Part shown: one piece after another, positions 5,428 through 40,749 of the stretch
How positions within the stretch are numbered: position 1 is the first letter of the stretch
How the letters are laid out: each line of letters begins with the position of its first letter
Virus record (IMG/VR): IMGVR_UViG_3300013212_000041
Span: 1-47,561 of that record
DNA from: a virus
Length of the DNA: 47,561 bases
Reading direction: 5' to 3' (one strand)
The notes under the pieces: model-generated
Told to the model about the DNA's origin: nothing
What the model saw: the letters and a program-made list of their open reading frames with translations, nothing else
The model's database searches: none
Made by a program: the position numbers and the translations under genes

Positions 5428-6063
5428 TTACTTTACTTTTACAGTTAGGTCAATAGCAGCACCCGCTGTCGCATAAGCAACAGTGCTCTTAGCTAGGTCA
5501 GTATACATCATTGTACGATCCTGCTGGTTGTTCAGGTCGAAGTTACGCATTTTACCGGAAGATAGACCTGAAGCCGCAGTATAAGTTGATACGTCGAAGT
5601 TAGCGCCAAGGAAAATTACTTCCATCTTCTTATCTTCGAGTGACTTAACCTTTGACTTAATCTTCGCTTGCGTGTATTCTTTAGAGGCATTTTCATGACC
5701 ATCTGTCAGAATAACAACCACTGTACGCTTTGAATTGCGCTCAAGAGCGAGATCCATAACATGAGCAGCTGCATCATAAAGAGGGGTCATACCTGCTGGA
5801 AGAACATCTCCATTTGCTTTGAGTGTTTCGAAATATGCAATGCTCTGGCCTTCAACCATAGGTGTAAGACGTACGGTTTGACCACCGACGCCGTTTGTTG
5901 CATCAAATGCGATAACAGTTACTTCACCTTCAACCTTTTCAGCTTGAAGAGATTTGATATATTCATTTAGGGATTCAATTGCATTTGTCCATGGCTCGCC
6001 GTTCATTGAACCTGAACGGTCTAGCGCGACAAATACAGAAACAGAATTTTTATTTTTTGACAT
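5428..6063 (-). CDS. von Willebrand factor A domain protein
   Basis: 211 residues, nearly all one vWA domain. The MIDAS metal site is visible: D15-R-S-G-S, a Thr in 'GMTPLYD', and 'ILTDGHENAS' near residue 120. vWA proteins use the bound Mg2+ to contact a partner. It lies downstream of the TROVE gene, which carries its own vWA domain. Its start overlaps the end of the upstream 92-aa gene by 14 bases. Partner and role unknown. Confidence 0.85.
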   Translation of the reverse strand: MSKNKNSVSVFVALDRSGSMNGEPWTNAIESLNEYIKSLQAEKVEGEVTVIAFDATNGVGGQTVRLTPMVEGQSIAYFETLKANGDVLPAGMTPLYDAAAHVMDLALERNSKRTVVVILTDGHENASKEYTQAKIKSKVKSLEDKKMEVIFLGANFDVSTYTAASGLSSGKMRNFDLNNQQDRTMMYTDLAKSTVAYATAGAAIDLTVKVK

Positions 6064-6328: not shown

Positions 6329-6337
6329 ATGAATTCC

Positions 6338-6415
6338 TATGTGTGTATGTGTTGCCGGTTACGAGTCCGGCGCTAGGTATATCGTTCTAGCCGTCTCCCT
6401 AGGTGGGATGTGACA
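6338..6415 (-). other. Structured leader between TROVE and the vWA operon
   Basis: The 93-base gap holds consecutive hairpins on the minus strand: GGCTAG with CTAGC(G)CC, then GCCGG-ACTCGTAA-CCGGC, which resembles a tRNA anticodon arm with CGT but has an 8-base loop. No complete cloverleaf forms. It may be a tRNA remnant or a leader structure of the vWA operon. Confidence 0.3.
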
Positions 6416-6421
6416 CGGTTA

Positions 6422-7846
6422 TTAGAGTGCGTAACGATCGCTCATTACAGCCTTCATCATAACAGCTTCTGGTGTCATACCAGCCATGTCGGCAGCCAAG
6501 ACTGACTTCATGATTGCTGGAGAGAAACCAGATACTAATGCTGTACCCTTTTCGTCGAAACGAACTGGAACGTTTTCATTAGCATTAATGTTCCAGAAAA
6601 CAACATTTGGCATGTCGTAATCTGCATCGTTGTACTTACGACGAATCATCTGGATTGCACGGTCGTCATAACCTGTGCAGCAGTTGAACTGCATGTCCGA
6701 AAGGATCAAAAGAACCTTTGGCATATCTTCGTTCTTAACACGGTTCTGTACAGAAACGCGCAGGATTTCATCAAACGCTGCATGCAGGTTTGTTGACATT
6801 TCCCAGTTAGATGTTTCCATCTTCTTTACCTTCTCCGAAAGCGAACCTGTCACAGTTACGAACTTTGGCGAAGATGAGAATGTCAGGAAGACATCCTTGA
6901 ATGGACCTGTGTTCTTGTCTGCACAGTATAGACCAAGCGATACAGCAACGTCAAGACATGAGATGTCTGACTTTGACTGATGACCACCAGCCTTACAAGT
7001 CATCGAACCAGAAACGTCGACGATTGGAAGAATCATCGCATCACCGATAAAGTTTGGCAGAGCCTTCCACTGCTCATTCGCAAGAGACGCATCGCCACGG
7101 CGAACGTTCTTAACGATGTCATATGGATAAACTGCACCGGCATTTACCTTAGCAATCTTTGGGTCGCCCTTCTTCAGAGCTTCCTTATATGCAGTGAAGG
7201 CATCTGGAGCATTCTTACCGAATGCCTTCGAATAACGAGACATAGCAAGTGATGGAACATGCGAGAAGTTAATCGCGTCAAATTCCTTTGCACACATCTG
7301 TGTCTCAACGACCTTTGTAAGCTCAACTAAGCGCTTACGGTAGTACTTTGGCGACCAGCCAAGGAATGAACGTAGTTCAAGAGCCTTTGGACCCTTACGT
7401 GGCATCCACTTCGCACAAAGACCATCACCAGCTGCAAGAGCCTCGCGAATCATATTAAACGCAGCTGCCTTAACATCAGCGTTCTCAAAGATTAGAAGGT
7501 CATCCCAACGACCGATTTCAGCCACGTTCTTTAACAAACGTGAATGTACCAGCTCATCGCGATGGTTTGTTTCAAGATACTTTAGTACCTGACGGAAGAG
7601 CTCACGCTCACCAGCACCACCACGGACGTCACGAGCCCACTGAGCAACACGAAGTGCCATCTCACGGTTCTCAGCATACGCCTTTTCGAACTGTGGTGTA
7701 ATGTTCTTACCACGGCTTGCGCCAATCTTGAAGAACAGGTCAGTTGTGTTTGATAGAGACGACTTTAGAGCCTTCATACCATTTGTAGTACGGGCTACGT
7801 TTGCAGTCGATGCGTTAACGTTTAGAACAGCGTTCTTGAATGACAT
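6422..7846 (-). CDS. rsr: TROVE-domain Ro60-like RNA-binding protein
   Basis: 474 residues from ATG 7846, preceded by GGAGTAAATAAT. The N-terminal two thirds are helical repeats with 'WARDVRGGAGERELFRQV' (70-87) and 'IGRWDDLL' (111-118), the pattern of the TROVE/DUF2828 superfamily. The C-terminal third is a vWA domain with MIDAS D277-V-S-G-S. Ro60 forms a ring that binds Y RNAs on its outer surface and the ends of misfolded RNAs in its cavity; the bacterial homologue Rsr works with PNPase in RNA quality control. A Y-type RNA (8122-8290) and a promoter (8051-8090) lie upstream. DUF2828 is the alternative family name. Confidence 0.8.
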   Translation of the reverse strand: MSFKNAVLNVNASTANVARTTNGMKALKSSLSNTTDLFFKIGASRGKNITPQFEKAYAENREMALRVAQWARDVRGGAGERELFRQVLKYLETNHRDELVHSRLLKNVAEIGRWDDLLIFENADVKAAAFNMIREALAAGDGLCAKWMPRKGPKALELRSFLGWSPKYYRKRLVELTKVVETQMCAKEFDAINFSHVPSLAMSRYSKAFGKNAPDAFTAYKEALKKGDPKIAKVNAGAVYPYDIVKNVRRGDASLANEQWKALPNFIGDAMILPIVDVSGSMTCKAGGHQSKSDISCLDVAVSLGLYCADKNTGPFKDVFLTFSSSPKFVTVTGSLSEKVKKMETSNWEMSTNLHAAFDEILRVSVQNRVKNEDMPKVLLILSDMQFNCCTGYDDRAIQMIRRKYNDADYDMPNVVFWNINANENVPVRFDEKGTALVSGFSPAIMKSVLAADMAGMTPEAVMMKAVMSDRYAL

Positions 7847-8050
7847 ATTATTTACTCCATTATTATACAGGTTAAGTAAGACGCATAGCATTGTAGCTTG
7901 CGAATCGGCAACATGAGAGCATGCTACCTCGGGTGATTAAATGCTGATATTAACCTTTAATCAACGGGATCATTTCTTTTTTAGATTAAGAGTCTAAAGT
8001 TTTGAATGATTTGCGGAACTGATCCCAATTACTCAATATTCTCAATTGTT

Positions 8051-8090
8051 TATATCATAATATAGTATCTTTTTTGATATAATGCAACTG
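8051..8090 (-). promoter_or_regulatory. Promoter for the TROVE gene
   Basis: Shows the recurring phage box: GTTGCATTAT, a T/A-rich spacer, then TATATTATGATATA. It leaves a leader of about 200 bases before ATG 7846 and separates the Y RNA from the TROVE gene. Confidence 0.6.
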
Positions 8091-8121
8091 TTACTTTACT
8101 TATTTTTCAATTATTTACAAC

Positions 8122-8290
8122 GGGCTGTACTTTTACGCGCTCTACCACTGAGCTACACCCGCATCATGACCCAGTACCACAGCCGCCTTAAAGGGCGCCA
8201 CCGAGGTAATGAGTCATGGTGCGGGCGGCGGGATTCGAACACCGCGACCTCGACCATGTAAGGGTAAGTATTGTATGCTGTAAACAGCCC
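8122..8290 (-). ncRNA. Y RNA (YrlA type) with permuted tRNA mimic, 'Y1'
   Basis: Read on the minus strand: GGGCTGT (8290-8284) pairs with ACAGCCC (8128-8122). TTAC then pairs with GTAA, leaving a 4-base bulge (AAGT) on the 3' side; next comes AGCATACAA. Inside is a circularly permuted tRNA: T arm with loop TTCGAAT, acceptor 3' strand CGCCCGC plus ACCA, a 54-base hairpin insert (8163-8216), acceptor 5' strand GCGGGTG (7 pairs), and D arm GCTC-AGTGGTA-GAGC. The anticodon arm is replaced by the terminal stem. This is the architecture of bacterial YrlA Y RNAs, and the RNA lies upstream of the TROVE gene. Confidence 0.85.
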
Positions 8291-9934: not shown

Positions 9935-10009
9935 TGGCGCGCACTATGGGATTCGAACCCATGCTCATGATTTTAGAGATCACTGCTTTGGCCGCTAAGC
10001 TAAGCGCGC
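9935..10009 (-). tRNA. tRNA-Sup (anticodon CTA, reads amber UAG)
   Basis: 75 bases including CCA. Acceptor GCGCGCT/AGTGCGC, D arm with GG, anticodon stem GTGAT/ATCAT with loop CTCTAAA, T arm ATGGG-TTCGAAT-CCCAT, discriminator G. The loop equals that of tRNA-Trp (CTCCAAA) with C35 changed to T, as in the E. coli su7 suppressor, which is charged with Gln. The amino acid here is not decidable from sequence. Confidence 0.9.
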
Positions 10010-10020
10010 ATAATATCTAC

Positions 10021-10151
10021 AGGTTCCGCTTTTTGCGTCCGGCGCGTCTACCATTCCGCCATCTCCCGATAAATTGGCCAGGAGAGTGGGACTCGAACCC
10101 ACACATCTTTCGATACCAGTTTCCATGCGATTGTGATGCTGCAAGGAACCT
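10021..10151 (-). ncRNA. Y RNA (YrlA type) with permuted tRNA mimic, 'Y2'
   Basis: AGGTTCC (10151-10145) pairs with GGAACCT (10027-10021). TTGC pairs with GCAA, with a 3' bulge as in Y1, followed by AGCATCACAAT. The permuted tRNA has T arm GTGGG-TTCGAGT-CCCAC, acceptor 3' TCTCCTG then GCCA, a 6-base linker, acceptor 5' CGGGAGA, and a Leu-like D arm with GGTAGA. Both stems differ from Y1 by compensating changes, strong evidence for a conserved fold. It lies 11 bases upstream of the suppressor tRNA. Confidence 0.85.
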
Positions 10152-10163
10152 AAAAATTTCAAC

Positions 10164-10372
10164 GGGATGTTATTTGATTTCGGATCTTACCTCTTCTTCT
10201 TTTCGGAGAAGCCCTATCTCACTTTCAGGTGAACACCTACTCCTAGAATGCTAGGCCATCGTTAGATCTTGCATTTTGGTCACCGAAGTGCCAAAAGAGG
10301 CTCACTAACATCTGACATGTATCCGAAGATACGTTAAAGCCCGAAGGCGTGTTTGGTTGCTGAAACCATCCC
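10164..10372 (-). ncRNA. Large multi-hairpin Y-like RNA, 'Y6'
   Basis: A terminal stem GGGATG (10372-10367) with CATCCC (10169-10164) is followed by GTTTCAGCAACCAAACAC, the Y-family motif. The interior contains GCC-TTCG-GGC, GTATC-TTCG-GATAC, a TTTTGG.CAC-TTCG-GTG.CCAAAA hairpin, CCTAG-CATT-CTAGG, AGGTG-TT-CACCT and CTTCT/AGAAG. No tRNA-like module is obvious. Directly upstream of Y2. Confidence 0.65.
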
Positions 10373-24396: not shown

Positions 24397-24493
24397 GGGT
24401 TGCCGTTTTTGTTGCCACCGTTGGCACTTCCCATAAATGGCGGGAAGTATTGGAATCGAACCAATCATTTTGTTTGTTTGCTGTAAACAACCC
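24397..24493 (-). ncRNA. Y RNA with permuted tRNA mimic, 'Y3'
   Basis: GGGTTGT (24493-24487) pairs with GCAACCC (24403-24397), then TTACAGCAAACAAACAAA. The first 14 bases differ from Y1 at one position. Permuted tRNA module: T arm ATTGG-TTCGATT-CCAAT, acceptor 3' ACTTCCC plus GCCA, a 5-base linker, acceptor 5' GGGAAGT (7 perfect pairs) and a short D arm GCCAACGGTGGC. The second stem seen in Y1 and Y2 is weak here. Confidence 0.8.
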
Positions 24494-25180: not shown

Positions 25181-25432
25181 TTAAATACTGTTACTATCTT
25201 TATTCATTTCCATTTGAATCAGTGCGTGGCGCTCTTTCTTAAGGCGCGCATCTTTCATCGCAGGAGTCTCAATTGTCTTTTCACTATGAGCAATACGCTC
25301 TTCGTGAGTCATATTCATTATAATATCTGCTACAATACCAGCAAAGCGGTTTGCTTCAGATGAATTAGGAAAATACCTTTGCACAGAACCAAAACGATTC
25401 TCAGCCATAGTCAAATAATCAGAACTAGTCAT
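25181..25432 (-). CDS. Hypothetical protein, 83 aa
   Basis: Helical; 'MTSSDYLTMAENRFGSVQRY' and 'KDARLKKERHALIQMEMN'. ATG 25432 after AAGGAATATAC. No family recognised. Confidence 0.6.
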   Translation of the reverse strand: MTSSDYLTMAENRFGSVQRYFPNSSEANRFAGIVADIIMNMTHEERIAHSEKTIETPAMKDARLKKERHALIQMEMNKDSNSI

Positions 25433-25462
25433 GTATATTCCTTTATTATATAATTATGCGCA

Positions 25463-25642
25463 TTACAATCTAGCGGATAATTTACCATGTAACTTTTTAA
25501 GGTGTTGCTTTTCTTTATAGACGTCACCCGTCATGTGAGCATTTGGATGGTCAGTGTCAAGTTGTTTCATGCGGTGATGTACTGCATTAACTAACACTTC
25601 ATGCTCTGCTCTTGTATCGGCAAACTCACTAAACTTTTGCAT
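25463..25642 (-). CDS. Small His-rich helical protein, 59 aa
   Basis: 'MQKFSEFADTRAEHEVLVNA' and 'VYKEKQHLKKLHGKLSARL'. ATG 25642 with AGGAG upstream, 24 bases from a TATAAATA late box. Resembles small DUF465-like helical hairpins. Confidence 0.55.
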   Translation of the reverse strand: MQKFSEFADTRAEHEVLVNAVHHRMKQLDTDHPNAHMTGDVYKEKQHLKKLHGKLSARL

Positions 25643-25928: not shown

Positions 25929-26330
25929 TTAAAGTTTTTCAAATTGATATATGCTACGCACTTTTTCAATTTGTTTATTCTTTGCATCTATACAACGAAA
26001 GTATATAGCACCTTTAATAGGTAAATCACATATAGGAACTAAGAAACATTCTTCAGTGTCCTGAAGGTATATTCCAAAGTAATCGATGCTTTCAACAGTA
26101 TAATCATTACGATTTGAAGCTGTTGAAGTAAGCTGAATACTTACTGCACCGCTTTTTTCGATTGCACGATACTTAACTTGAACTCGTTTAGGGCCTGAAC
26201 CATCTCTACGGTCAATGACCATATCGTAAGGGCAATCCTGAGGCATCTTAGCAAACCACCAACCTTTTTTGACAACGGCTAGTATAAATGCAGCTTCCCC
26301 GATGTCTCCTTTCTGATTCGAAATACCCAA
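25929..26330 (-). CDS. PD-(D/E)XK nuclease family protein
   Basis: 133 residues. 'NQKGDIGEAAFILAVVKKGW' (Glu), 'CPYDMVIDRR' (Asp) and 'RVQVKYRA' (Q-x-K) give the fold's E-D-(Q/E)xK order, as in intron-type and free-standing homing endonucleases. No intron is visible nearby; it lies between tRNA-Ile and a membrane protein. Could be a homing enzyme targeting tRNA loci or a DNA repair nuclease. Confidence 0.7.
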   Translation of the reverse strand: MGISNQKGDIGEAAFILAVVKKGWWFAKMPQDCPYDMVIDRRDGSGPKRVQVKYRAIEKSGAVSIQLTSTASNRNDYTVESIDYFGIYLQDTEECFLVPICDLPIKGAIYFRCIDAKNKQIEKVRSIYQFEKL

Positions 26331-26340
26331 ACGTGTTACC

Positions 26341-26517
26341 TTAAAAACCTAACGGAATACCTAAACGTTGAAGAACAACGACAGCAGCGATAACGAAGAC
26401 TGCAATCTTTGCAATCATGTTAGGCGTGCCGGGTAGTGTCTCATCGATAATACGTACTGCAATATAAACGCAGATTGCGACGACGAGGAATAATACTAAA
26501 AGTGATACTAGGCCCAT
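26341..26517 (-). CDS. Small two-segment membrane protein, 58 aa
   Basis: 'MGLVSLLVLFLVVAICVYIA' and 'MIAKIAVFVIAAVVVLQRLG' around a short loop. Holin-like layout, but also typical of unknown phage membrane proteins. AAGGAATCCCAC upstream. Confidence 0.6.
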   Translation of the reverse strand: MGLVSLLVLFLVVAICVYIAVRIIDETLPGTPNMIAKIAVFVIAAVVVLQRLGIPLGF

Positions 26518-26539
26518 GTGGGATTCCTTTATGTTATAA

Positions 26540-26615
26540 TGGGGTGGTCGGCGGGTAACGATCCCGTTCCTCCGGATTCACAGTCCAGTATGCATCCATC
26601 AACACCTCGACCACC
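26540..26615 (-). tRNA. tRNA-His (GTG), with encoded G-1
   Basis: Eight-pair acceptor GGTGGTCG/CGACCACC directly followed by CCA, so G-1 pairs C73, the His identity. Anticodon CTGGA-CTGTGAA-TCCGG. T loop ATCGTTA, non-canonical. Confidence 0.9.
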
Positions 26616-26647
26616 ATAATTTCACATTAACATAATCACTTCAAAAT

Positions 26648-26756
26648 TGGCTGCAGCGATAGGAGTTGCACCTACATTATCTATCGATACAGACGGCATT
26701 TCCTCCGAAAGTATCTTACTATTACCTATCTGATCAGAGCTTAGGCAAACACCGCA
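26648..26756 (-). tRNA. Large tRNA-like gene, anticodon unclear
   Basis: Acceptor TGCGGTG/CGCTGCA with GCCA and T arm GTAGG-TGCAACT-CCTAT. The 109-base length exceeds class II tRNAs; the middle folds as GATAC/GTATC around TTTC-GGAG-GAAA, and no 7-base anticodon loop is clear. A tRNA-like RNA or decayed class II tRNA. Confidence 0.4.
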
Positions 26757-34577: not shown

Positions 34578-34592
34578 AATGCTTTATCTACT

Positions 34593-34691
34593 GGAACGTT
34601 TGTTTTGGACGGGAATTGAACCCGCACTGTCTGATTAGAAGTCAGATGCTCTACCGTTGAGCGACCATAAGGTTTTTTGCTGAACCGTTCC
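34593..34691 (-). ncRNA. Y-like RNA enclosing a CCA-less tRNA-Arg (TCT) cloverleaf, 'Y5'
   Basis: GGAACG (34691-34686) pairs with CGTTCC (34598-34593), followed by GTTCAGCAAAAAACC, the Y-family motif. Inside is an unpermuted cloverleaf (34601-34671): D arm GCTC-AACGGTA-GAGC, anticodon TCTGA-CTTCTAA-TCAGA (TCT), T arm GCGGG-TTCAATT-CCCGT. Its acceptor TTATGG/CCAAAA has a mismatch and no CCA. It may instead be a true tRNA-Arg whose CCA is added after processing. Confidence 0.6.
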
Positions 34692-34706
34692 AAAATCGTA
34701 TTCTAC

Positions 34707-34771
34707 AGAGTTGCTTTTGTCCGCTAAGACATCCATTGTTTAAGCGTTTTGTGTTTTGCTGTAACAACTCT
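34707..34771 (-). ncRNA. Minimal Y-like RNA, 'Y4'
   Basis: 65 bases: AGAGTTG (34771-34765) pairs with CAACTCT (34713-34707). TTACAGCAAAACACAAA is almost identical to Y3. The loop has only a CGCT/AGCG hairpin and no tRNA module. Confidence 0.65.
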
Positions 34772-36634: not shown

Positions 36635-38032
36635 TTATTTTATCTCTGCGTTCGCTCGGACCTCATCAAACGTCATAAAGTTGAGCTGTGCTCCGTTCTT
36701 ATAAACAGTGCGTAAAACATCCTTAATTGGTTGCCCGTTTGTATAGCACTTCGATGCGAAATCGCGTGTGATTGTTCTGTAACCAAGTAGTGGACCTTGA
36801 TAATCAAGGAACAGGAGTCCTTTTTTCGAGCGCTTACCGCTGTCAGTAATAGGGTCTTTGAAAACATCAACCCATTTACCATCGATGAAAGCAGCACTAC
36901 ATTTCATTGCAAACTTCTGGTCGTCGCGATTGACGATTTGAAGCAATGCACCACCCTGACCGAAGACAACGTTATCGGCGCTGTAATTCCACGCTTCGAG
37001 TGCTTTCAGAATTTCTGTGATAGAATCGATATTGACGCCGTCACCTTGAAGTACGCGAACGTTATTGAGAACCATGTATCCCTTTTCGTTTGTAGTCGTG
37101 CCGAAATACGATGCTAGAATAGCAACACATTTTAGTACAACCTCAGCAGGATAGCCGCTATCCGGACGAACTACGAGAGTTGCGCCAGAATCAAGAACGT
37201 CTTGCTTGAGCTCAGTTCCCCAAAGCTTGCACGCTTCGTAGATATCATAACTGTCAGATACAGCCGAAACAATACCACCAGGTTTACCGTTCTGCTTAAC
37301 CATGTTACGATACGAATCAACTTCGCGCTCGCGGCCCCAGCTGGTTACAGTACTGTGCTCCATGGCAGGTACACTAAAACCAGCCATATTGGCATCATAA
37401 TAGCGACGAGCAAAAAGCAACGCCTCAACCGTATCAGTACCCATAAAGTTGACGAGGTGGGCTGCTCCCCCAATGCCAGCACTCTCAAGGCTAGATACAC
37501 CACGAGCACCAAAATCGTGTAACTTAAAGTTAATGTCAGCAGGGCTTCCTGTACGTGTGAGAGCATCTAAAACCACCTTTTTAATTTCGCGACTGTTTGT
37601 TGCAACCGTAGTAGGATACCAGATTGCACGAAGCAACGGCGTTTCTAGGAACGATGTCAACCAATAACATTTAGGATCAGTATTTACAATCGTCGCGAGT
37701 ACATTTTGAAACGGTACAACAGTACCTTCTGGAACAGCTTTAATTTCAACCGGAAGGTAACCTTCGTGTGCTCGGAGAATATATTCCCAACCAGCGCGAT
37801 TGAATGGTTCACCATGCGCTGTAATAATCAGCTCAGCTTCATCAATCATTTCCTTCGTGATTGGTGTAGTCAGATATTCCTTAATAAACGCCTGCAAGCC
37901 AAAGAATACAGTTTCATCATATTTGCCACCACGGCTTTCAATATAACTGTAGATGTATTCCGTACGAGGCGGATATTGATTGAACTGACTGTATTTGTAG
38001 CTGTCCGAATTTAATATAATATTCTTAGTCAT
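36635..38032 (-). CDS. nadV: Nicotinamide phosphoribosyltransferase (NAMPT/NadV)
   Basis: 465 residues, full family length. 'LHDFGARGVSS' (about 170-180), 'VPAMEHSTVTSWG' (catalytic His), 'VVRPDSGYPAE' and 'LQGDGVN' are NAMPT active-site blocks. It makes NMN from nicotinamide and PRPP. With the NMN adenylyltransferase at 39664 it gives a two-step NAD+ rebuilding route known in phages (NARP2 type), which counters NAD+-depleting immunity. Good RBS and ATG 38032. Confidence 0.95.
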   Translation of the reverse strand: MTKNIILNSDSYKYSQFNQYPPRTEYIYSYIESRGGKYDETVFFGLQAFIKEYLTTPITKEMIDEAELIITAHGEPFNRAGWEYILRAHEGYLPVEIKAVPEGTVVPFQNVLATIVNTDPKCYWLTSFLETPLLRAIWYPTTVATNSREIKKVVLDALTRTGSPADINFKLHDFGARGVSSLESAGIGGAAHLVNFMGTDTVEALLFARRYYDANMAGFSVPAMEHSTVTSWGREREVDSYRNMVKQNGKPGGIVSAVSDSYDIYEACKLWGTELKQDVLDSGATLVVRPDSGYPAEVVLKCVAILASYFGTTTNEKGYMVLNNVRVLQGDGVNIDSITEILKALEAWNYSADNVVFGQGGALLQIVNRDDQKFAMKCSAAFIDGKWVDVFKDPITDSGKRSKKGLLFLDYQGPLLGYRTITRDFASKCYTNGQPIKDVLRTVYKNGAQLNFMTFDEVRANAEIK

Positions 38033-38053
38033 AATAGAACTCCTCTATTTGTT

Positions 38054-38272
38054 TTATGCCTCTGAGTCTATCTCTTTGGCTGTTGATTCATTGTAGTATT
38101 GTTTTGGAGTATAATCAACTACTTTTACAACTGTATGTGGTTTCATATTTTTGTAAATTAGCTGTTTACAAACCCTTTCATCCAACGGGTTATATGGTAC
38201 AAAGTAACCGCAGGTTCCATCCTGGGAATACCCCCAGCGCTGACATTTTATAATGCATTTACACTCAGGCAT
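38054..38272 (-). CDS. Hypothetical Cys-rich protein, 72 aa
   Basis: 'MPECKCIIKCQRWGYSQDGT' with five cysteines in the first 35 residues, perhaps zinc-binding. Overlaps the macro gene stop by 8 bases, lies in the NAD operon. Confidence 0.6.
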   Translation of the reverse strand: MPECKCIIKCQRWGYSQDGTCGYFVPYNPLDERVCKQLIYKNMKPHTVVKVVDYTPKQYYNESTAKEIDSEA

Positions 38273-38762
38273 TGAACTCTACCAACGTAACAGTGCCACC
38301 TCTTTTTGTGACTTGCTCAGCGAACTTTATGAGAAGCCCCATAATGCGTTCCTTATCTCCACCAGCAAGTCCCATACCAATATATGGGAAACCGATATTT
38401 TTATCACCATATACTTCTAGTAACTTACGTAGAATCACCTTGAAGCTATCATACTCAAAATGGTCCTTACCACGCGGCATGTAATTAAGTTGTGTATAAG
38501 CATTCACGATGATAAATGGTTTTAGTGGATAACGGTAATCAGTTTGTACCCAACTATAATTACCAAGTTTCATCACCGGCTCAGTACGGGTTGAAAAGTT
38601 ATGGTCAGCCAAATAAGCGCCCAAGTGACGCTCTTTAATCTCTTTGGCAATACCAGAGCCCATTGTGTTTAGACAATTGCAGCCGTGAACGATAACGTCA
38701 AAGAGACCGTTCTCAGCCATGTCAAGAAGATTACCCCTCGCGTGTTGCAGCATCTCGAACAT
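38265..38762 (-). CDS. Macro-domain ADP-ribose hydrolase/phosphatase
   Basis: 165 residues, a single macro domain: 'FDVIVHGCNCLNTMGSGIAK' (adenosine/ribose loop), 'MKLGNYSW' and 'IGFPYIGMGLAGGDKERI' (phosphate loop). Members bind ADP-ribose and remove it from phosphates, proteins or DNA (DarG type). In an operon with NAMPT and NMNAT-Nudix, it suggests recycling or removal of ADP-ribose. Confidence 0.85.
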   Translation of the reverse strand: MFEMLQHARGNLLDMAENGLFDVIVHGCNCLNTMGSGIAKEIKERHLGAYLADHNFSTRTEPVMKLGNYSWVQTDYRYPLKPFIIVNAYTQLNYMPRGKDHFEYDSFKVILRKLLEVYGDKNIGFPYIGMGLAGGDKERIMGLLIKFAEQVTKRGGTVTLVEFNA

Positions 38763-39042
38763 CCTTATCCCATTTTTTAAACTTTTCAGTCTTATACTCT
38801 CGTTGGTCTAAAACAAGGCCGAGCTCATCCATCGAGAAGTTCTTTTCAAGGAAAAAGTCCATAGCAGCGTAAACGTCGCCGGTTTCTTCAATAAACTTCT
38901 CTCTGAGGTCATATGACCAATGTGATGTGCTTCCTTCAGAACCGATAAGTTTACCGCAAACCTGCTGTAGTTCACCAAGCTCTTCAATAAGCTTTGAAAG
39001 GCCGTTCCATTCATCAGAACCTATGCAATATGGTTTAGTCAT
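38731..39042 (-). CDS. MazG-like NTP pyrophosphohydrolase
   Basis: ATG 39042 ('MTKPYCIGSDEWNGLSKLI') in ATGA overlap with the upstream stop. 'LIEELGELQQV' and 'EKFIEETGDVYAAMDFF' give the EExxE/ExxD metal site of all-alpha NTP-PPases. Phage MazG enzymes hydrolyse dNTPs or (p)ppGpp-type nucleotides. Overlaps the macro start by 32 bases. Confidence 0.75.
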   Translation of the reverse strand: MTKPYCIGSDEWNGLSKLIEELGELQQVCGKLIGSEGSTSHWSYDLREKFIEETGDVYAAMDFFLEKNFSMDELGLVLDQREYKTEKFKKWDKDVRDAATREG

Positions 39043-39194
39043 CAAACGTTCCTTCCAAGACTCTTTTGAATCTCTTTCCAGCGCTCTTCAGCAGATGCAA
39101 CGATGTAATTAAACTCAGAACCATACGGGGTTGTGTAATTACCGTTGCGAACGAATGCAATTACAAATTCTGTCATAAACTGTTCTTTAGTCAT
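39042..39194 (-). CDS. Hypothetical protein, 50 aa
   Basis: 'MTKEQFMTEFVIAFVRNGNY', helical; coupled to the MazG-like gene. ATG 39194 overlaps the upstream gene's end region. Confidence 0.55.
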   Translation of the reverse strand: MTKEQFMTEFVIAFVRNGNYTTPYGSEFNYIVASAEERWKEIQKSLGRNV

Positions 39195-39195
39195 A

Positions 39196-39387
39196 TCAAT
39201 AACCCTTCACGATAACTTTTTTGCTGCAATCAGGACAGTCAATGTAATATTCCATCCACGTATCACCACTGTAATCACCCGCTTGATACGATTTAATCTC
39301 AGAGAGTTTATACTCGAGAATACTCGCGCAACTGCGACACGTGACTCGCTTTACAGCTGATTCGTCTCTTCCAACAACTTTAACCAT
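39196..39387 (-). CDS. Zinc-ribbon protein, 63 aa
   Basis: ATG 39387 ('MVKVVGRDESAVKRVTCRSC'). CRSC and CPDC pairs separated by about 35 residues form a classic two-CxxC zinc ribbon. Confidence 0.65.
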   Translation of the reverse strand: MVKVVGRDESAVKRVTCRSCASILEYKLSEIKSYQAGDYSGDTWMEYYIDCPDCSKKVIVKGY

Positions 39388-39661
39388 GGTCAAGTACTCC
39401 TAATGCTGCACGCTCATCTGGCGTAAGTTTAGCAAGTGCAGATTTATATGCAGCCTTACGTCTCGCTTCAACAATTTCCTCTAAGTCATCATAGATTGTG
39501 ATTGTTTTTGGACCAGATGGCATATACAGATATTTGTCTTTATCAGCATATGCTTTAGCGAGTGCAGCGCTACTGAAACAAGCAGCAACAGATGGTAGAT
39601 TTCCAGCACCGCTCATCATGTCAGCATGAAACACTTCATAATATTCAATTATAGTAGCCAT
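39380..39661 (-). CDS. Hypothetical protein, 93 aa
   Basis: ATG 39661 ('MATIIEYYEVFHADMMSGAG' after the first Met-Ile-Met alternatives). Helical C-terminus 'EARRKAAYKSALAKLTPDER'. In the NAD operon, no family recognised. Confidence 0.55.
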   Translation of the reverse strand: MATIIEYYEVFHADMMSGAGNLPSVAACFSSAALAKAYADKDKYLYMPSGPKTITIYDDLEEIVEARRKAAYKSALAKLTPDERAALGVLDHG

Positions 39662-39663
39662 GA

Positions 39664-40749
39664 TCAAATCCCCAAGAAGTATTGAATGATGTGGTAGTGG
39701 TCGTCGAAGAAAGCATCCTCTTGAAGATCACTAATAGGTACCCACTTTGCTTTGATAGCATCATCAGCACCCTTTACCTTTGGTAATTCGCGTGCATCAG
39801 GTAGCTTAATAAAAGCAGCATAAGTCACTACACGTCCAATGGTCGAACGATGCGGGTCATCGAACATGCGCGATTCAACAACGTTACCGCGTAGAACCGG
39901 GTCAGGAATCTTGAGAAGTGTTTCTTCACGAAGCTCACGAATAACACCATCCATTAGCGGTTCGTCGATGTTAAGGTGACCACCAGGGATAGCCCACAGA
40001 CCCTTTCCAGGCTCAGCTTTACGCTTTACGAGAAGGATGTGACCACTCTGAACAACTACAGCATCGACGGTTAAGTGCTTAACTGGATAGGGTGCAGCTT
40101 CCCATTGCTTTTTGTAGTTACGAACGAATTTCAGTTCAGCCGATAGGTTCTGAAATTCAACCAAATCCTTAAAGCGTTCCATGAAGTTGGCCACGCTCTC
40201 AGGTACCAGCGAATTATCAATTTCACCGCTTTCAAGGTAGCGCTCACGAACTTCCGTCGCGTGCATTACGTTGTGTAATGGGACGTCAACCGAATCGAAT
40301 TGCGGGAACATTTTGAGGTAATACGAGGTGTGGTCTTTGGCCATGCCAATTAGACCGATTTTAGCATCATTGAGACCAGATGCTTGAAACCCGTTGTTAT
40401 TTACGGCTCGTAGCGATGCTTCCTTGACAATGCTTTGCACTTGATTAATCCAAGCAGCATCATTATAAGTTTTATCGAATAGGGGTTTAATTGAGAGGCG
40501 AAGGTCGATGGTACGGTCATATGCGCCGTCATCCATGCCTGCTTGATTGAGATTATAACTATCTCGAATCATCTGAGTGCGCTCTTGAAATGTAAATGGG
40601 TTTCGTATGGTGCGGGCCTTGCCAGCGCTACCAACAAGTACTAGAACGTACTTTGCTTTTTCGAGAGCGGTATCGATGATACGTTTGTGCTCAACGTGGA
40701 ACGGTTGAAACCGACCAATAAAGACCAATAGGTCAAACTCTTTTTCCAT
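39664..40749 (-). CDS. nadM: Bifunctional NMN adenylyltransferase / Nudix hydrolase
   Basis: 361 residues. The N-terminal nucleotidyltransferase has 'FIGRFQPFHVEHKRIID' (HxGH-type) and an ISSTxxR-like block; it adds AMP to NMN to form NAD+. The C-terminal Nudix domain has the box 'GGHLNIDEPLMDGVIRELRE' and acts on ADP-ribose in known fusions. Partner of NAMPT in the same operon. Confidence 0.95.
   Translation of the reverse strand: MEKEFDLLVFIGRFQPFHVEHKRIIDTALEKAKYVLVLVGSAGKARTIRNPFTFQERTQMIRDSYNLNQAGMDDGAYDRTIDLRLSIKPLFDKTYNDAAWINQVQSIVKEASLRAVNNNGFQASGLNDAKIGLIGMAKDHTSYYLKMFPQFDSVDVPLHNVMHATEVRERYLESGEIDNSLVPESVANFMERFKDLVEFQNLSAELKFVRNYKKQWEAAPYPVKHLTVDAVVVQSGHILLVKRKAEPGKGLWAIPGGHLNIDEPLMDGVIRELREETLLKIPDPVLRGNVVESRMFDDPHRSTIGRVVTYAAFIKLPDARELPKVKGADDAIKAKWVPISDLQEDAFFDDHYHIIQYFLGI

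Follow-up and report, generated by a model that had tools for sequence, protein, structure and literature searches.

A Ro60-family gene and its Y-type RNAs

We analysed the whole virus record IMGVR_UViG_3300013212_000041 (47,561 bases; hereafter the window), which is one metagenome fragment, and found that it encodes a Ro60-family protein together with at least eight Y-type RNAs sharing one 5′ design, a 7-base-pair (bp) helix, three bases and CAGCA. The window belongs to a T4-like phage, as seen from gp32, gp59, about 35 tRNA genes and a permuted transfer-messenger RNA (tmRNA) of alpha type. We regard it as very probable that these RNAs are partners of the Ro protein. Most of the phage, bacterial and archaeal Ro genes that we examined have this stem beside them, an indication that Ro partner RNAs form a large class, most of it so far unrecognised. 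The initial annotation of this DNA had described a single tRNA-mimicking Y RNA, here called Y1, beside a Ro60 (TROVE) gene; as the whole partner set one RNA proved too few, since two more lie inside 6422-8290 (8026..7966 and 7956..7869) and five lie outside it.

The Ro60 (TROVE) gene itself was correctly called: the open reading frame (ORF) is present at 7891..6422 on the minus strand, and the predicted structure of its product best fits Ro60/TROVE proteins. Because homologues begin at the second ATG (MSFKNAV, about 7846) and not at the upstream end of the ORF, we placed the likely start codon there, giving a gene at 6422..7846. Judged from the sequence, the first 15 codons of the ORF are probably untranslated leader, and the first ORF codons overlap the leader RNA described below. 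An in-frame stop in the Ro gene of another locus (L164) was considered as recoding and rejected, since it sits upstream of the start.

Pfam models DUF2828 and DUF7788 reach threshold on the protein while the TROVE model does not, and the protein falls into PHROG 850, an RNA-binding protein. A sequence profile searched against the PDB gave Ro60/TROVE proteins as best matches, all of them weak (E 0.31-0.47), and a phage homologue had earlier been labelled Ro sixty-related by HHpred. The structure was predicted from an alignment of 33 homologues at medium confidence (mean predicted local distance difference test score 73.6). In the E-value ranking of Foldseek, vWA domains came on top, and nothing in the list fell under 0.001. 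After realignment of the Foldseek candidates with VIA-align, the top ten were all Ro/TROVE structures (Z 12.7 to 18.5 over 366-398 residues), headed by 9kop (18.5) and by the Ro60 of Thermus phage phiLo (9l5y, 17.2, second best), and lone vWA domains scored lower (Z at most 10.8). Deinococcus radiodurans Rsr (2nvo, Z 13.4) and animal Ro60 (1yvr, 14.3; 9nen; human Ro60, 15.0) share the predicted HEAT-like ring and vWA domain over about 370-394 residues (Z 13.4 to 15.0), but offer no useful sequence match (profile E 0.31) to the phage protein, which belongs to Pfam DUF2828/DUF7788. According to the model, then, the window protein folds like Ro60/TROVE, with a HEAT-repeat ring joined to a vWA domain. 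The metal-site motif of the vWA domain (DxSxS...T...D) is intact, with D292, S294, S296, T367 and D399 invariant in 11 homologues. Ro proteins of this kind were found in 681 of 50,697 phage records.

Y1 (8122..8290, minus strand) sits 276 nucleotides (nt) upstream of the likely Ro start. Its closing helix GGGCTGT/ACAGCCC (8290-8284/8128-8122) is of the CAGCA type, with CAGCA at 8280-8276, and encloses in order a T arm (8245-8228, one bulged U), an acceptor strand (8227-8221) with ACCA, a long hairpin extension, the other acceptor strand (8162-8156) and a D arm (8153-8139), so that the module is a permuted tRNA lacking the anticodon arm. The fold has a z-score of -4.3, and none of 200 shuffles was equally stable. 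In two relatives whose Ro proteins are 86% identical (L002, L003), the Y1 orthologue has a wholly different acceptor stem with pairing kept and a short tip; in a third (L112, Ro 74%), the long acceptor-tip extension is retained with paired changes. By these comparisons the structure of Y1 is more than chance, since the altered acceptor stems of its relatives still pair. The acceptor and D part matches tRNA-Gly(GCC) of the same phage at 22 of 25 positions. We considered whether Y1 might be cut in two at its CCA, in the style of a permuted tmRNA, and dropped the idea, because many modules end in tetraloop tips without CCA.

The YrlA plan which the initial annotation had assigned to Y1 was borne out in part. 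The terminal stem with an unpaired 5′ strand, the permuted tRNA module and the adjacent Ro gene are all there, as in YrlA (RF02553) with Rsr, where the ends form a closing stem around a T arm, acceptor and D arm and the gene lies beside Ro. The stem sequence and the Rfam threshold did not agree: in the proposed covariance search, the YrlA model matched the tRNA module of Y1 and left the stem unmatched, scoring 21.3 bits against a gathering score of 69, and the best phage match reached 44.9, so that all lie under the cut-off. In further difference from YrlA, whose consensus closing stem reads acggCgaAUGCu.../..AaAcUuGucGccgu, the phage RNAs have CAGCA and a shifted closing helix, they form arrays, and some of their modules are not the YrlA module.

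A stem signature linked to Ro genes

Since the Rfam YrlA model stayed below threshold everywhere, with low scores mixed among those of ordinary tRNAs, controls included, we adopted a signature of our own as the detector. It comprises a closing helix of 7 bp, a gap of exactly 3 nt, the CAGCA pentamer, a module that varies and a G behind the helix. A loose search for helix plus CAGCA found nine places in the window against 1.1 expected; such a search is weak alone, and the strict form, a strand comparison and independent sets were required. Over whole phage genomes with one G-U pair permitted, the total from this loose search was close to background. As the detector demands pairing, the tests free of circularity are a module-first search and the strand comparison, in which signatures on the Ro strand are counted against those on the opposite strand.

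Across nine named phages and the window, the density of the strict signature close to Ro (25 in 130 kb, within 6 kb of the gene) was 17 times that found elsewhere (11 in 993 kb). The viral test set comprised 80 further Ro loci chosen by protein alone, with related sequences counted separately. Here the signature was present in 76 loci and occurred 226 times on the Ro strand versus 14 times on the other, and helices as such were equally frequent on either strand. CAGCA ranked first, unprompted, among all pentamers at that site (204 vs 19), and a spacer of exactly three bases gave 251 vs 19, with other spacings near background. In a second set of 80 bacterial and archaeal Ro loci, many from Ruminococcus and some from bins named Lokiarchaeota and Woesearchaeota (bins that may contain phage contigs), the signature was found in 69 loci, 160 times on the Ro strand versus 15 on the other, and CAGCA was again the top pentamer. 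Conservation of the terminal stem in relatives had been set beforehand as a point on which the annotation could fail; the stem is kept far beyond close relatives.

The module-first search, blind to the closing stem, showed the same association from the other side. The handle, that is the closing stem with its CAGCA strand, was found on 40 of 47 permuted tRNA modules with short tips, and on none of 13 with long, chance-like tips; the modules have 39 different acceptor stems. When all viral contigs were scanned, with Ro ignored, for a DNA pattern in which a T arm comes after CAGCA, 39 places were found, 20 of them with a closing helix.

These data bear on the reading that takes the RNAs for tRNA genes, decayed or permuted, left in a tRNA-rich region, with the stem as a processing signal unrelated to Ro. 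The RNAs do sit among tRNA genes and contain tRNA parts, and ARAGORN calls one of them a tRNA. Against this stand the invariant CAGCA at exactly 3 nt, a strand bias that follows Ro, and the presence of the RNAs beside Ro even where there are almost no nearby tRNA genes. Moreover, in Ro-less control regions of T4 and T5 (50 kb each, with tRNA clusters) the signature was counted zero times and once, respectively, and the one in T5 lay outside the tRNA cluster. Leftover tRNA genes are thus already strongly disfavoured, and we give them very little weight. The stable RNAs in the tRNA clusters of T4 (L111 30909-31172) and T5 (L231 10285-10645) were tried as Y RNAs and rejected, as they have no CAGCA signature.

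Of 78 viral loci, 59 have a Y-type RNA whose end lies less than 200 nt ahead of Ro, often just before the Shine-Dalgarno sequence, and in two loci (L152, L161) the stem encloses both the Shine-Dalgarno sequence and the start codon of Ro. We take this placement as a sign, not proof, of Ro autoregulation.

tRNA-like modules and their possible use

The stem encloses modules of several types. Some are permuted tRNAs, some lone anticodon arms, some unpermuted tRNAs whose acceptor stem is poor, and some a T arm together with an acceptor hairpin; about 100 in the viral set hold other hairpins. This set has 164 non-redundant RNAs, of which 34 contain a T arm (0.1 expected from shuffles) and 41 an anticodon-type hairpin with a 7-nt loop, U33 and a purine at 37 (2.5 expected). 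The bacterial loci have the same mixture, with 26 T arms and 26 anticodon arms among 170 RNAs. Lone anticodon arms are of the Lys CUU type in the window, Lys UUU in L002 and Thr UGU in L112, L116, L124 and L126, and others are of Asn or Ile type; unpermuted tRNAs with a poor acceptor stem occur in the window (34592-34692), L115 and L123. The anticodon arms lean to U36, with 30 of 41 against 265 of 740 tRNAs from the same loci (Fisher p 3e-6, a value that relatedness may inflate). We also observed that the arms (L112-L191) favour U36 with A37 A38. U36 with A37 A38 marks the tRNA class bearing t6A37. The large RNAs of L139 and L150 had no Rfam family match in a search of five loci.

We propose that the window locus encodes a Ro60-family ring protein and its own set of Y RNAs. 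Each RNA has the same handle, in which the 7-bp closing helix is accompanied at its 5′ side by an unpaired NNNCAGCA and at its 3′ side by A-rich sequence, and which is topped by an exchangeable module, in many cases a piece of tRNA. The handle is likely the Ro-binding site, by analogy with YrlA, whose basal stem holds Rsr and whose tRNA-like part is the effector (PMC8394870). Ro would then hold many handles, while the modules would present tRNA surfaces, either the T/acceptor/D body or the anticodon arm, to proteins that read tRNAs. In this tRNA-rich phage the most likely use would be to occupy or recruit tRNA-acting enzymes, including host RNases as well as anticodon nucleases, and thereby to spare the tRNA pool of the phage. 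Through the handle in its leader, Ro would limit its own synthesis. Taken as a whole, this account, from the ring protein with its handle-and-module RNAs to decoy or recruitment and leader autoregulation, is the best explanation we have and seems to us fairly probable. The decoy or recruitment step, considered separately, is tentative. Its support is circumstantial, consisting of the tRNA-rich neighbourhoods, RNA-ligase matches in the Ro phages, and the Salmonella rsr-yrlBA-rtcBA operon, which is induced by cut tRNAs; the authors of the Salmonella study suggested that YrlA might inhibit the nuclease (PMC7790460).

Several observations weigh against the proposed use. About 100 of the 164 viral-set RNAs have modules of no tRNA likeness by the tests applied, and Salmonella YrlA is not cut by the anticodon nuclease (PMC7790460). 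There is no RNA ligase in the window fragment, and the ligase frequency comes from Ro phages alone. The same RNAs are also found in bacteria where Ro has hardly any tRNA genes nearby, so that guarding the tRNA pool of a phage cannot be their only purpose, and this argues for a broader role. A more far-reaching proposal is that Ro proteins of the DUF2828 type generally work with modular RNAs that display tRNA fragments, that phages would use them as decoys or baits to defeat tRNA-cutting immunity, and that Ro would limit itself through the leader handle. We consider this extension rather doubtful at present.

Another role is suggested by the activity known for Rsr and Y RNA in Deinococcus, in which the Y RNA tethers Rsr to PNPase (PMC7790460; PMC8394870). 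In a scheme like RYPER, the complex of Rsr, Y RNA and PNPase, the Y RNAs would link Ro to the PNPase of the host, or to a phage nuclease, and control the entry of structured RNA, so that turnover of host rRNA, tRNA or mRNA is altered and the modules vary only the tether. The Ro fold and the YrlA layout fit this scheme, and it applies to bacteria and phages alike. However, it leaves unexplained the lone anticodon arms, the broken tRNAs and the several different modules per phage; the variety of modules points beyond a single tether, and we judge RYPER-like decay to be possible yet not very likely.

A repair platform, as suggested for jumbo phages, where a TROVE protein has been noted (PMC7824862), would have Ro and Y RNAs hold cleaved tRNAs or offer them to phage RNA ligases, with the modules as guides or competitors for tRNA halves. 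Of 17 named Ro phages, 15 have an RNA-ligase-family match at E ≤ 0.001, and in 10 it exceeds the curated cut-off; the ligase gene adjoins Ro in GAP32 and PHA46, RtcB is near Ro in Listeria phage AG20, and the Salmonella operon mentioned above responds to cut tRNAs. On the other hand, large phages often have RNA ligases anyway, the count covers Ro phages alone, RtcB is present in just two of the 17, and the ligase-free window fragment counts here as well. We judge repair an improbable function, and display of tRNA surfaces on Ro-held handles is still the reading we prefer.

To our knowledge, bacterial Y RNAs are known as one or two per Ro gene, with a tRNA-like domain that has no agreed purpose. 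Vertebrate Y RNAs are small, have paired ends and are bound by Ro60, and as far as we know they lack a tRNA module and differ in the sequence of the stem. It is already known that phage Ro proteins are annotated and one is solved (9l5y), and that Y RNAs exist in mycobacteriophages (Chen 2014, as cited in PMC12282133). Listeria phage CKA15 offers a close parallel, as its authors suspected an Rsr with Y RNAs and found the Ro protein (CKA15_055) in purified particles with 20 peptides (PMC12282133). We identified three CAGCA RNAs in CKA15 at 25,290-25,552, just upstream of Ro. The very abundant non-coding region of CKA15 (26,236-26,727 of OR088597; L232 3237-3728) was rejected as a Y RNA, because it has no CAGCA stem at the published coordinates; parts of it are strongly folded. 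In the literature searched, outside which most subscription journals fell, we found neither the signature nor the arrays described, nor modules made of an anticodon arm or a broken tRNA. One short, testable signature now flags candidate partner RNAs next to the majority of the Ro genes that were examined, in arrays whose modules are often different tRNA pieces; it supplies phage Ro proteins with candidate partners and explains some odd phage tRNA calls. The reason for tRNA mimicry by Y RNAs becomes a direct experimental question, and autoregulation can be tested as well, given the handles in Ro leaders, two of which enclose the start codon.

Further Y-type RNAs and neighbouring features of the window

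All other Y-type RNAs of the window are likewise on the minus strand. The leader RNA (7869..7956; AGGTTAA TAT CAGCA ... TTAACCT; fold z -2.6) ends 22 nt ahead of the likely Ro start. Next to it lies an RNA with only an anticodon arm (7966..8026; GGGATCA GTT CCGCA ... TTAGA CTCTTAA TCTAA ... TGATCCC; fold z -2.4), which has the variant CCGCA and a Lys CUU loop and has counterparts in L002 and L003 (Lys UUU) and L112 (Thr UGU). A second permuted-tRNA Y RNA, Leu-like, is found at 10021..10151 (AGGTTCC TTG CAGCA ... TCTCCTG GCCA ... CGGGAGA ... GGAACCT) and was recovered both by its module without the stem and by its stem. The large RNA at 10164..10372 (209 nt, several hairpins; GGGATG GTTT CAGCA ... 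CATCCC) is a variant with a 6-bp helix and a 4-nt gap, and its shorter counterparts are at L002 601-729 and L003 365-493.

The three remaining RNAs lie farther from Ro. The one at 24397..24493 (GGGTTGT TTA CAGCA ... GCAACCC; fold z -2.0) has a T arm and an acceptor-like hairpin and is similar to L115 7800-7890. That at 34592..34692 (TGGAACG GTT CAGCA ... CGTTCCA; fold z -2.9) has an unpermuted body like tRNA-Arg(UCU) with a poor acceptor stem, and is similar to L115 7577-7672 and L123 325-424. ARAGORN and Rfam both report a tRNA-Arg(TCT) at 34601-34671, which sits within this Y-type closing stem; with this stem and the poor acceptor, phage tRNA counts may therefore include Y RNAs. The last is a short RNA at 34707..34771 (AGAGTTG TTA CAGCA ... 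CAACTCT; fold z -1.8) with a look-alike at L152 7042.

Several further features were noted. In L002, GTTGATATAAATA (1448-1462) stands immediately behind the Y1 stem and again behind the large Y RNA, and we take it to resemble the T4 late promoter TATAAATA. The stretch downstream of Ro (6330-6425) is structured (fold z -2.7), with two hairpins, one of them like an anticodon arm, and without a CAGCA stem. The gene two places downstream of Ro (5428-6063) encodes another vWA protein, a free-standing one. The permuted tmRNA of the phage (11958-12416) is of alphaproteobacterial type with the tag ANDNNAYGAYALAA. A tRNA at 9935-10009, called tRNA-Pyl by ARAGORN and kept beside the Y RNAs in L002 and L003, has the anticodon CTA (amber) and may be an amber suppressor. 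Finally, a NAD-salvage pair at 36635-40749, a nicotinamide phosphoribosyltransferase and a cytidylyltransferase-NUDIX protein, possibly serves in anti-defence.
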